Below, piece by piece: positions 60,218-63,578 of a DNA stretch of 64,000 nt. The notes under the pieces are model-generated. The model had not been told where the DNA came from. It worked only from the letters and a program-made list of their open reading frames with translations, and did not search any database. Position 1 is the stretch's first letter. Each line of letters opens with the position of its first letter. The stretch is from Sphingomonas sp. (GTDB lineage: Bacteria; Pseudomonadota; Alphaproteobacteria; Sphingomonadales; Sphingomonadaceae): assembly GCF_017744835.1 (NCBI RefSeq), contig NZ_JAGIAM010000003.1, positions 1 through 64,000 on the forward strand, given 5' to 3'. Both the position numbers and the translations under genes were made by a program.

Positions 60218-60622
60218 ATGGAGTGTAGGATTTCAACCAGCCTGCTCGACGCGATCCGGCGGGAATCCGCGATCGTTGCGCCCAGGGAGGCATGCGGGCT
60301 GCTGTTCGGCGGACCGGCCGAAATCACCGATTGGCAGGTGGTTGAGAATGTTGCCGAAAACCCCGAGCGCCGGTTCGAGATCGCGCCCGCCGCGCTGTTC
60401 GCGGCGCTCAGGGCCGAGCGCGCAGGCGGCCCCCGCATCGCCGGCTATTGGCACTCGCACCCGAGCGGCGACGCCACCCCCTCGGCCACCGACGCGGCGA
60501 TGGCGGCGGCGGACGGCAAGCTGTGGCTGATCGTGGCGGGGGCGGCGGCGCGGCTGTGGCGGGCGGAGGAAGGCGGCCCGGTGCATGGGCGGTTTCGGGA
60601 GGTGGGGGTGGTGGTTGGGTGA
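60218..60622 (+). CDS. JAMM/MPN metalloprotease-family protein
   Basis: A 134-residue Mov34/MPN domain protein. The zinc motif GYWHSHPSGDATPSATDAAMA gives H-x-H-x(10)-D, and the upstream Glu is in REACGLLFGG. Bacterial JAMM proteins cut ubiquitin-like or sulfur-carrier-type tails, or act in siderophore and cysteine synthesis; no sulfur-carrier gene is adjacent. ATG 60218 lies only 19 nt from the rluD start, so the two promoters overlap. Confidence 0.9.
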   Translation: MECRISTSLLDAIRRESAIVAPREACGLLFGGPAEITDWQVVENVAENPERRFEIAPAALFAALRAERAGGPRIAGYWHSHPSGDATPSATDAAMAAADGKLWLIVAGAAARLWRAEEGGPVHGRFREVGVVVG

Positions 60623-60639
60623 GGGCCTCAGGCCCTTCC

Positions 60640-60665
60640 GTCACCCCGGCCTTGTGCCGGGGTCC
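60640..60665. repeat. Palindromic repeat after JAMM gene
   Basis: GTCACCCCGG-CCTTGTG-CCGGGGTCC is a variant of the short palindromes at 9624, 35612 and 50220. It is 18 nt after the JAMM gene stop and just before the ATPase gene. Confidence 0.7.
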
Positions 60666-60697
60666 ACCGGGACGCAGACCGTTAGCGGAGTGAAGCT

Positions 60698-61207
60698 TTG
60701 TTCGTGATGATTTCAGGGTGTTCGGGCGGGGGGAAGTCGACTCTGCTTTCGGAACTAGAACGGCGCGGGTACGCCGTTGTCGCGGAGCCCGGGCGGCGCA
60801 TCATCGCCGAGGCGCGTGCCGGAGATGGTCGCACGCTTCCATGGATCGATGCGGCTGCATTTGCTCGACGCGCCCTTGAGATGTCCGTCAGTGATTTCGA
60901 GGCGGCCCGCGGTCTCACTTTCTTTGACCGCGGCGTCGTGGACGCGGCGGTCGCGATCGTTGCGACCGGCGGTGACTATCCAGCGCCAGTAATCGATTCC
61001 ATCCGCTACGATCGGGTTTTCCTCGCGCCGCCATGGCCCGAGATTTATGTGAACGATGAAGACCGCCGGCACAGCTTGGACAAGGCTTTGCAGGACTATG
61101 GACGCGTGCAGCAGGCTTACCTGAACGCGGAGTATGCTCCCATAATGCTGCCGCGCGACACAGTATCGGCTCGTGCTGACTTTGTCCTGAGCCAGCTTCG
61201 GGTATAG
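60698..61207 (+). CDS. AAA-type ATPase/kinase-like P-loop protein
   Basis: A 169-residue P-loop protein with Walker A MISGCSGGGKSTLLSEL at the N-terminus and a YAVVAEPGRRIIAEA segment typical of the AAA_28-like (NadR/thymidylate-kinase-type) domain. FFDRGVVDAAV provides an acidic cluster. Such proteins may phosphorylate small molecules; the substrate is not known. The start TTG 60698 follows GGAG; ATG 60707 is an alternative. GC content and codon bias are already lower than in the rluD-rpoH block, so it may belong to the acquired segment with the reverse transcriptase. Confidence 0.78.
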   Translation: MFVMISGCSGGGKSTLLSELERRGYAVVAEPGRRIIAEARAGDGRTLPWIDAAAFARRALEMSVSDFEAARGLTFFDRGVVDAAVAIVATGGDYPAPVIDSIRYDRVFLAPPWPEIYVNDEDRRHSLDKALQDYGRVQQAYLNAEYAPIMLPRDTVSARADFVLSQLRV

Positions 61208-61547
61208 CGGATACGAGCGGCTCCGGGGTGTCTTGCTATCGATCTTAGTGGCTGCGCCTAATTGTCAGCGATGCTATTATTGGATGTGCGTGGCAGTTGG
61301 CGAGCTGTCTCGACTTTGAACACCAATATCGATTGACGCGGCAATGAAGTTGTTCCTATCCTGTTCGCGTTGATCTCTGGCAGGAAGCGCGGCTGGCGGG
61401 ATAACCGTCGAGAGCGAGCGAACCTGCTACGGCGAGGCGACGGCGCAAGTCGTCACCCCGATTGAGCGGCAAGGGCCGAAAGGTTCCGCTGCTGAGTTCA
61501 GCGCTCCGTCAGGCGGGTGAGGTTGATCGACAGGACCCCAAAGACGC
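61208..61547 (+). promoter_or_regulatory. Reverse-transcriptase leader with promoter and structured RNA candidate
   Basis: This 340-bp gap has a promoter-like TTGACG at 61333-61338 and TATCCT at 61357-61362. A ~185-nt leader before the reverse transcriptase follows. Within the leader, CGACG-GCGCAAGT-CGTC (61437-61454) and AGCGG-...-CCGCT (61466-61490) can form hairpins, with more G/C stems after them. Such leaders supply templates or partners in retrons and in several defence-associated reverse transcriptases. Homology to a known ncRNA could not be judged by eye. Confidence 0.5.
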
Positions 61548-62921
61548 TTGGCATCAGATCTTACAAGAGCGGTCCGGAACCTGAGGAACTTGGAACACGC
61601 GTGGGGCGTGATCCAACGAAACGGGCGCACATCGACATCCGAAGAGGTTCGGCTCGAATTGGAGGTTTTCGCCGAAGATGCGTCGGCCAAATTAAGATCG
61701 ATCCAATCTCGCCTCGGACACAATTCGTTCAAGTTTGAACCTGCTAAGGGTGTTCCCATTCCGAAGCTCGATGGGCGAGGAAAAAAGACTGGTAAGTTCA
61801 GACCGATAGTACTTGCGCCGGTTGAGAGCCGTGTCGTTCAGAGGGCGATTCTCAACGTGCTGCTCGATGTTCCTACACTGAAGCCGTTTGTTCAGACCCC
61901 TTACAGTTTCGGGGGCATCAGAGGCGAGCGCGGACGAAAAGTCGAGAGATTAGCCCGCTCCGAATCTATTTCGGCGGTACCGGCTGCGATCAAGGCGGTT
62001 CTCGACGAGATAGGCGCCGGAGCCAGATTTGTCGCAAGTGCCGATATCCGGTCATTCTTCACGCGAATCTCGAAGGACGCAGTCACTCAAATCATCGCGG
62101 CCGCCATCAATGATGGCGAGCTAATTGCGCTCTTTCGTCAAGCCATTGATGTTGAGCTATCCAATATGGCGCAGCTCAGAGATAAAGCGGTCGATTTCCC
62201 CATCGAGGATATTGGTGTCGCTCAAGGCAATTCCCTTTCGCCACTCCTCGGAAATATCGTTCTTGCCGACTTCGATCGGGAAATGAACGAGGGTGATTGT
62301 AGGTGCATTCGATATATCGACGATTTCATCATATTAGCGCCATCCAAGGCGGCTGCGACGGCGCGCCTTCGGAAAGCCGCGAATATGCTCAAGGCGCTCG
62401 GCATGGAGCTTTCTCCCGAGAAAAGCTCAAAGGGCGGCACATCAATCGACGATGGATTCGACTTTCTAGGTGTCAATCTTTGCCTCGGTGCGGTCCGACC
62501 GGGGGCGAAGGCCCAAGCCAAGATACTACGTTCCGTACAATTGGCTTTTGAGGAAAGTCTCAAAGCATTGCGTGGCATCCGACACGGCCAAACTCTCGAT
62601 CGCACAAGCTCGCTTTCAAGCACATTGAGGCGCGTTGACGGGATGATTGATGGCTGGGGAAAGCACTATTGGTTCTGCAATGATACGCAGGCTTTCTTAA
62701 ATCTAGACGTAAAGATAAGCGAAAGCATCCGCCGCTATCTCGGTGAATATACGGCAATCCGTGCCGAGACGGCTACGACAAGCCACCAGCGAATGCTGGG
62801 GATTTCTGAACTCCGCTACATCGCGCGCGAACCTTTCAATTTTCCGGCAATCGGCACGCGGCGGGCAGAGCGCGACAGGAAATTTGCCGCAACGCTTTCA
62901 TCGGCAGAGGGCCTATCTTAG
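61548..62921 (+). CDS. Standalone reverse transcriptase
   Basis: A 457-residue RNA-directed DNA polymerase. Motifs in order are GVPIPKLDGRGKKTGKFRPIVLA (finger/RT1-2), FVASADIRSFFTRIS (motif A, Asp166), VAQGNSLSPLLGNIVLADFD (motif B), CRCIRYIDDFIIL (motif C, YIDD 256-259) and FDFLGVNL. The C-terminal RVDGMIDGWGKHYWF resembles the maturase/thumb helix of group-II-intron-like enzymes. No HNH endonuclease or Cas1 fusion is present. No intron boundaries were recognised, so it is free-standing, like abortive-infection, retron or DRT enzymes. The TTG at 61548 lacks a strong ribosome-binding site, so the start may be later. GC is lower than in its neighbours, which suggests transfer. Confidence 0.9.
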   Translation: MASDLTRAVRNLRNLEHAWGVIQRNGRTSTSEEVRLELEVFAEDASAKLRSIQSRLGHNSFKFEPAKGVPIPKLDGRGKKTGKFRPIVLAPVESRVVQRAILNVLLDVPTLKPFVQTPYSFGGIRGERGRKVERLARSESISAVPAAIKAVLDEIGAGARFVASADIRSFFTRISKDAVTQIIAAAINDGELIALFRQAIDVELSNMAQLRDKAVDFPIEDIGVAQGNSLSPLLGNIVLADFDREMNEGDCRCIRYIDDFIILAPSKAAATARLRKAANMLKALGMELSPEKSSKGGTSIDDGFDFLGVNLCLGAVRPGAKAQAKILRSVQLAFEESLKALRGIRHGQTLDRTSSLSSTLRRVDGMIDGWGKHYWFCNDTQAFLNLDVKISESIRRYLGEYTAIRAETATTSHQRMLGISELRYIAREPFNFPAIGTRRAERDRKFAATLSSAEGLS

Positions 62922-63086
62922 ACGCAAGATGCATCCCCGGACTGAAAAGGGCGGCGAACAGGCGCACGGCCCTGGAGATAAGATGGGCCTTGGTTCTTAG
63001 CCCGCAAACGCCTTTGACGGCCCCCACCCGCAGCGCCTATCCTGCCCCCGCAGCGCAACCGCCGCGCGCGACCCGGATGACCACCC

Positions 63087-63578
63087 ATGACCCGGACCCA
63101 GGATCGCAGAACCCTCCTCGCCACCGGCGCCCTCGCGCTGGCCGGCGCCTCCGGCGCCGCGCTGGCCGGGCCGGCGCTCGCCGCTTCGCCGACGCCGCTG
63201 CGCCTCAGCGATGCCGAATGGCGGCGGCGGCTTTCGCCCCAGGCCTATGCGGTGCTGCGGCGGGGGGCGACCGAGCGGGCCTTCTCCAGTCCGCTCAATT
63301 CGGAGCATCGCAACGGCACCTTCCTGTGCGCCGGCTGCGCGCTGCCTCTGTTCGCCGCGCGCACCAAGTTCGACAGCGGCACCGGCTGGCCGAGCTTCTG
63401 GACGCATCTGCCCGACGCCGTCACGCAGAAGCGCGACACCAGCCTGTTCATGGTCCGCACCGAAGTCCGTTGCGCGCGCTGCGACGGGCATCTCGGTCAT
63501 GTCTTCAACGACGGCCCCAGGCCGACCGGGCTGCGCTATTGCATGAACGGCGCCGCGCTGCGCTTCGTGCCTGCCTAG
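63087..63578 (+). CDS. msrB: Exported methionine sulfoxide reductase B
   Basis: A 163-residue enzyme reducing methionine-R-sulfoxide. A twin-arginine-like leader (RRTLLATGALALAGASGAALAGPALAA) sends it to the periplasm. Two zinc CxxC pairs are present (FLCAGCALPL, VRCARCDGH). GTGWPSFW and the catalytic Cys in LRYCMNGAALRFVP are complete. It probably repairs oxidised envelope proteins. It stands alone after the reverse transcriptase and before a full copy of the dispersed 3' element. Confidence 0.94.
   Translation: MTRTQDRRTLLATGALALAGASGAALAGPALAASPTPLRLSDAEWRRRLSPQAYAVLRRGATERAFSSPLNSEHRNGTFLCAGCALPLFAARTKFDSGTGWPSFWTHLPDAVTQKRDTSLFMVRTEVRCARCDGHLGHVFNDGPRPTGLRYCMNGAALRFVPA

Follow-up and report, generated by a model that had tools for sequence, protein, structure and literature searches.

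The stretch of DNA analysed here (the window) comprises 64,000 nucleotides of Sphingomonas sp., positions 1 to 64,000 of the forward strand of contig NZ_JAGIAM010000003.1. It contains a reverse transcriptase (RT) gene preceded by a promoter, termed P0, and a leader that carries one copy of a structured RNA element, termed R (Table 1). An initial annotation had described an intact standalone RT with no intron, Cas1 or HNH partner, possibly a defence enzyme of an undescribed group. Relatives were obtained from a scan of one genome per species, giving 79 loci, mostly of Pseudomonadota with a few labelled Acidobacteriota, Nitrospirota or Bacteroidota; the set was extended by one relative from a plasmid and two from viral contigs. 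The scan was anchored on the RT and is silent on R elements without one. The RT is intact: D166 is invariant or near-invariant among homologs, and of 78 aligned sequences, 74 have YIDD and the other four YVDD. RVT_1 (3e-21) is its sole Pfam domain. Nothing resembling Cas1, HNH or an intron was observed in the RT open reading frame (ORF) or the neighbouring ORFs, and no Rfam group II intron element in 60600-63200. The group to which the enzyme belongs has already been described. YIDD is the distinguishing motif of G2L4 RTs (PMC4244168, PMC12337344), and in a phmmer comparison the solved structures that match best are those of G2L4 RTs, 9d5x and 9d4s, with E~1e-63 over 415 residues, the next-best structure reaching only about 1e-17. 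With the AlphaFold model of the RT (predicted local distance difference test, pLDDT, 86.6), Foldseek returned 9d4s and 9d5x as the top matches, 9d4s being first with a template modelling score (TM-score) of 0.90 by target length. In the RT tree, built without outside RT groups and therefore saying nothing on the monophyly of G2L4, 9d5x falls inside the family of window relatives. By sequence, fold and tree, the window RT is a G2L4 RT.

In common with the Pseudomonas aeruginosa G2L4 RT (PDB 9d4s/9d5x), the window enzyme has YIDD and the RT3a insertion, and neither a D domain, an endonuclease domain nor intron RNA is present. The RT3a landmarks D182 (acidic), N185 and F198-P199, ahead of AQG, align with E, N and FP in the window, and R190 of the RT3a plug salt bridges is kept. 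It differs in being longer, with an RT2a insertion and a C-terminal tail, and in having D at the position of R191, which is R in only 10 of 77 relatives. Origin as the maturase of a degenerate group II intron would account for the 146 bits scored by TIGR04416 (group_II_RT_mat), and is extremely improbable: that score falls under the curated cut-off of 300, Rfam detected no intron domain V/VI in the window region, and both YIDD and the nearest structures point to G2L4. Other RT families were rejected on profile scores, namely Drt2 (NCBIfam, 34.5 bits against a cut-off of 390) and, judged on the RT profile, retrons (NCBIfam retron St85, 41 bits against 235). In PADLOC the best named UG profile was UG17 at 104 bits, under the generic RT profile at 134; DRT10 (UG17) was rejected, no SLATT protein being recognised around the RT in the window, where the nearest upstream ORF is of the AAA_28 family. 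An Rfam Chlorobi-1 match inside the RT coding sequence, at 62130-62192 (+), scores 26 bits against a gathering threshold of 50 and is probably due to chance.

The leader, which extends from about 61369 to 61547 (~185 nt), had also been annotated as structured, as having its own promoter and as lower in GC than its surroundings, and each of these points is borne out. GC is 0.52-0.57 across leader and RT versus 0.62-0.74 in the flanks. The sigma70-like promoter TTGACG-N18-TATCCT (61333-61362) is a weak match taken alone, because three sites of this type occur in 61150-63100 versus 1.1 expected in shuffles; a promoter at a matching distance from R recurs in homologs. A second such site, with hexamers identical to those of P0, is located at 63014-63043 (+) ahead of the next gene and is probably a chance occurrence. 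Regarding structure, the folding energy of the window leader is no better than composition predicts (z = -1.27) and would miss the stems, which are therefore convincing only through covariation between homologs. An alignment of 26 leaders, that of the window among them, gives five helices within R, with 93.4% pairing and changes on both sides at 16 of 26 pairs, a signal reached by 0 of 500 shuffles. When the partners were slid, pairing fell to 33-55%, a control that favours the structure in that it was derived from the same sequences. Homologs flanked by intron domains V/VI, or a leader lacking conservation among close homologs, had been named as observations that would speak against the initial annotation. 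Here, no intron domains were found in the window region and the leader is highly conserved, being identical to that of the nearest relative (L016) at 154 of 155 positions while the synonymous divergence of the RT is 1.05. In most other pairs, too, the leader is conserved beyond the synonymous sites of the RT.

Upstream sequence was sufficient for repeat analysis at 65 G2L4 loci, and in 47 of these a second, near-identical copy of R lies upstream of the first, 321-425 nt apart. In these long forms the upstream copy (R1) and the copy next to the RT (R2) enclose a segment S. The copies have a median length of 129 nt and a median identity of 99.2%, with 21 loci at 100%. Between loci R diverges, forming 21 clusters among 32 loci with a recognisable start. 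The arrangement is found close to the solved enzyme: a Stutzerimonas locus, used as a proxy for the prototype P. aeruginosa G2L4 locus, encodes an RT 86% identical to 9d5x and carries an R1-S-R2 block with 141/141 repeats. Among Pseudomonas relatives of the solved RT, L067 has no visible second R and the leader of L068 contains an assembly gap. L043 and L044 (CP051228.1) are two equal-score matches near both ends of one chromosome assembled from a metagenome, perhaps an assembly overlap. An RT together with a pair of near-identical repeats of 100-150 nt, one in the 3' part of an ORF, resembles a diversity-generating retroelement. That candidate was rejected, since the R1/R2 mismatches are of many kinds and not adenine-biased, most copies being identical or nearly so, and the RT here is G2L4.

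The promoter that precedes R1 has a -10 ending a median of 11 nt ahead of it, and R1 therefore begins near the predicted transcription start. A second promoter, P1, is located in S ahead of the conserved CAAAAACGTGCC, with a median of 32 nt from P1 to CAAAAACG. It should be noted that the CAAAAACGTGCC block (L016:1225-1300, likewise in other long loci) is also overlapped by a short ORF of a different frame (..CKNVPTRHG..), which has the better-spaced ribosome-binding site and is followed by a GUGCC/GGCAC hairpin. Two further segments, alpha just after R1 and beta about 45 nt into S, are complementary to alpha' and beta' after R2. Their own-locus scores of 29.0 (alpha) and 27.3 (beta) compare with 20.2 (standard deviation 0.7) and 19.6 (0.6) in permuted loci, an excess of about 12 standard deviations each which, the loci being related, is not a probability. 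Across 17 aligned loci these helices are 95% paired with 8 double-changed pairs, not reached in 500 shuffles, and RNAalifold recovered alpha independently. The order alpha, beta, alpha', beta' is, as predicted from sequence, an H-type pseudoknot in one transcript.

Analysis of the reading frames suggests that the repeats bound a small gene whose two halves are in swapped order. The frame from ATGCAAAAACG (or a variant start) crosses R2 and usually ends soon after, continuing at some loci toward the RT; the same frame read through R1 extends into S, ending close to P1 in many loci. The frame thus consists of an N-terminal half (N) ahead of R2, R itself, and a C-terminal half (C) behind R1. Across 21 loci, one per cluster, this N-R-C frame contains 0 stops in 902 codons of R (28 expected) and 0 in 840 codons of C (30 expected), while the other two frames contain 34 and 26 in R and 47 and 43 in C. 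The N-terminus is basic then hydrophobic, signal- or membrane-like, in 31 of 32 loci. With the halves in this order, a complete N-R-C gene would exist only in a circular or tandem product. In 301 genomes, a translated search matched R-C and N-R as separate pieces and no full-length contiguous N-R-C, and no contiguous effector gene was found in the plasmids searched. Translation of R1-C on its own was rejected, a plausible start with a ribosome-binding site being present in just 2 of 32 loci. A frameshift at CAAAAAC feeding into the MQKRA frame was likewise not adopted, as it would require a slip onto a mismatched codon. What is new is that in most relatives the leader appears to be paired with a near-identical upstream repeat, the two enclosing a small gene in permuted order. 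The G2L4 literature describes a free-standing repair enzyme, and no report of repeats, non-coding RNA (ncRNA) or a split gene at G2L4 loci was found in it, subscription papers being poorly covered and absence not being proof.

The process by which the gene could be assembled is proposed as follows. P0 would transcribe R1, the C-terminal half, P1, the N-terminal half, R2 and the RT, and the transcript would fold with the crossing alpha/alpha' and beta/beta' helices. The RT would copy this RNA from a start within or after the C-terminal half, through R1 to the 5' end. The end of the complementary DNA would then transfer to R2 by the homology of R, and synthesis would continue into the N-terminal half and P1. 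The product would be (R-S)n DNA, in which P1-N-R-C forms one gene encoding a protein of ~100-125 aa whose N-terminus would resemble a signal sequence or membrane segment and which perhaps acts as an effector against phage or in growth arrest. That strand transfer by the RT joins the split gene into P1-N-R-C stands at about an even chance. The wider proposal is held more tentatively, as a serious possibility short of an even one: G2L4 loci would be gene-assembly machines, in which strand transfer between 130-nt repeats of the RT's own pseudoknotted transcript makes an effector absent from the linear genome, and single-repeat loci such as the window would be derivatives that lost the gene.

The same features could be read as regulation. 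G2L4 RTs have been assigned a role in DNA double-strand-break repair via microhomology end joining (PMC12337344); the RT may be just this enzyme and R-S-R its regulatory leader, with the pseudoknot controlling RT translation, R1xR2 deletion acting as a crude expression switch and an N-R2 mini-protein, if made, serving as a leader peptide. Such regulation would suit the intact RTs of single-repeat loci, and the AGGA within beta' is probably where the ribosome binds for the RT in the window's clade. It is nevertheless unlikely, since the C half after R1 is open in the exact frame of the non-contiguous N half, a plausible start for R1-C is as rare as stated above, and regulation has no need for identity between the R copies. 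A module resembling a type I toxin-antitoxin system, in which P1 drives a small hydrophobic toxin, N-R2, that is regulated by the P0 RNA, draws on the short hydrophobic N-terminus and on the two promoters, one RNA starting near the repeat. However, the RNA from P0 runs in the sense direction of the toxin RNA and is not antisense to it, and the open C half and the RT are ignored, making this a very improbable solution.

The short forms of the locus are those of the window and 17 other tree loci, with one detectable R ahead of the RT, in the order P0-R-RT, a diverged second copy possibly having been overlooked in a few distant loci. The P0 flanks of short forms match those ahead of R1 in sister loci; the window matches L016 in this way, and on its 3' side it corresponds to R2. 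Short and long forms are mixed on the tree, the 18 short loci requiring 15 changes, equal to shuffled labels. The simplest reading, with which these observations are consistent, is repeated R1xR2 deletion; the reverse route would be duplication of R, giving the long forms. In the window, R1xR2 recombination would have removed P1, both gene halves, alpha and beta, leaving the RT intact. A pattern search found no remnants of S elsewhere in its genome, and a search of that genome with the long L016 leader returned only the window copy. An empty-site comparison in the genus gave no result, as gene order around the JAB gene was too little conserved in the stretches compared. Homologous recombination may also be the joining step itself: R1xR2 exchange would excise a P1-N-R-C circle and leave P0-R-RT, with the RT a mere neighbour or repairing the break by strand annealing. 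Such an event would leave the short forms, which are found repeatedly on the tree, and recombination works well on identical direct repeats of 130 nt. Left unexplained are a repeat that begins near the promoter start, covarying helices that link S to the gap between R2 and the RT, and, though the sample is RT-anchored, a block directly ahead of the RT. Joining by recombination is considered unlikely, although both it and the regulatory reading are live rivals of RT-driven assembly.

Several observations weigh against RT-driven assembly of a gene. Homologous recombination would by itself be able to keep the repeats uniform or to release a circle. RTs in pairs that include short forms are under purifying selection, with ratios of nonsynonymous to synonymous divergence (dN/dS) of 0.05-0.2, so that the RT may serve some function where the split gene is missing. 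Third-position changes show no clear excess over those at first and second positions (191 versus 179 and 165 in R; 267 versus 292 and 268 in C), and whatever keeps the frame open would thus not be ordinary purifying selection on amino acids. The N-R-C protein has no family in Pfam or PHROGs, and the AlphaFold model of R-C (pLDDT 52) shows no confident fold. At the loci inspected by eye, no ribosome-binding site is well spaced for the MQKRA start codon. Furthermore, the unit length is in many cases not divisible by three, and with such mixed remainders the endless ORF of DRT2 is no general feature here.

With respect to the neighbourhood, the initial annotation had tentatively linked the RT to the P-loop protein just upstream. 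This protein, of the AAA_28 family, is probably unrelated, because a homolog is found beside no other G2L4 locus. The suggested defence role fares less clearly. PADLOC on 116 flanking ORFs returned single matches, for example GajB, HamA, a type I restriction endonuclease and PD-T7, plus broad mads profiles, which is nothing beyond a mild defence signal; a role of G2L4 loci in defence is nonetheless plausible by analogy with DRT2.

Table 1. Features of the RT locus, in positions of the window.
Feature	Position	Strand	Remarks
AAA_28-family P-loop protein	60698-61207	+	TTG start; just upstream of P0
P0 -35 hexamer TTGACG	61333..61338	+	
P0 -10 hexamer TATCCT	61357..61362	+	18-nt spacer; start expected near 61369 (predicted)
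R element, single copy	61375..61504	+	Structured RNA, five covarying helices
R frame (AGSAAGGITVESERTCYGEATAQVV..)	within 61375..61504	+	R segment of permuted ORF; neither N- nor C-terminal part in window
R helix 1	61378-61382 with 61425-61429	+	
R helix 2	61395-61399 with 61405-61409	+	
R helices 3 and 4	61436-61437/61456-61457 and 61441-61444/61449-61452	+	
R helix 5	61465-61477 with 61482-61493	+	
alpha' (CGTCAGGCGGGT)	61507..61518	+	Partner alpha follows R1 in long forms, absent in window
beta' (TCGACAGGACCCC)	61527..61539	+	Pairs with beta in long forms
G2L4-family RT	61548..62921	+	457 aa, TTG start
RT residue D166	62043-62045	+	
RT3a insertion of RT	about 62154-62219	+	
RT motif AQG	62220-62228	+	
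RT motif YIDD	62313-62324	+	

Two known processes are close to the one proposed. In DRT2 systems a neo gene is assembled on an ncRNA template (PMC12039810, PMC11100668), and neo is likewise a stop-free frame overlapping a structured RNA (PMC12039810). Both systems have a pseudoknotted RNA ahead of the RT and a stop-free frame that would exist only in joined or concatemeric DNA, being absent from the linear genome. The differences lie in the RT family, in the join, which is bounded by 130-nt direct repeats in G2L4 and by short ACA motifs in DRT2, and in the promoter, P1 being intact within S whereas that of DRT2 is split across the junction. In addition, G2L4 units often have lengths not divisible by three, and a signal-like N-terminus is predicted for the protein. 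The second process is strand transfer in retroviruses and long terminal repeat elements (R-U5...U3-R), where the repeat likewise starts close to the 5' end of the RNA and is found again further downstream, with a promoter segment upstream of the second copy, and where joining yields the order U3-R-U5, corresponding to P1-N, R and C. No mobility, integrase or RNase H was seen at G2L4 loci, and joining would yield a small gene instead of a provirus. This comparison is an analogy of logic and not one of descent.

G2L4 RTs have so far been treated as stand-alone repair enzymes. If most G2L4 loci, including that of the close relative of the solved enzyme, carry a covarying pseudoknotted RNA that has repeats at its ends and a permuted open frame, the natural substrate is probably that RNA, and what is seen in the laboratory as repair may then reflect strand-annealing chemistry that evolved for joining R-S-R RNA. 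If the proposal is true, G2L4 loci would represent a second, separate case of an RT writing a gene that is missing from the genome, with the evolutionary trace visible in the recurrent single-repeat forms.
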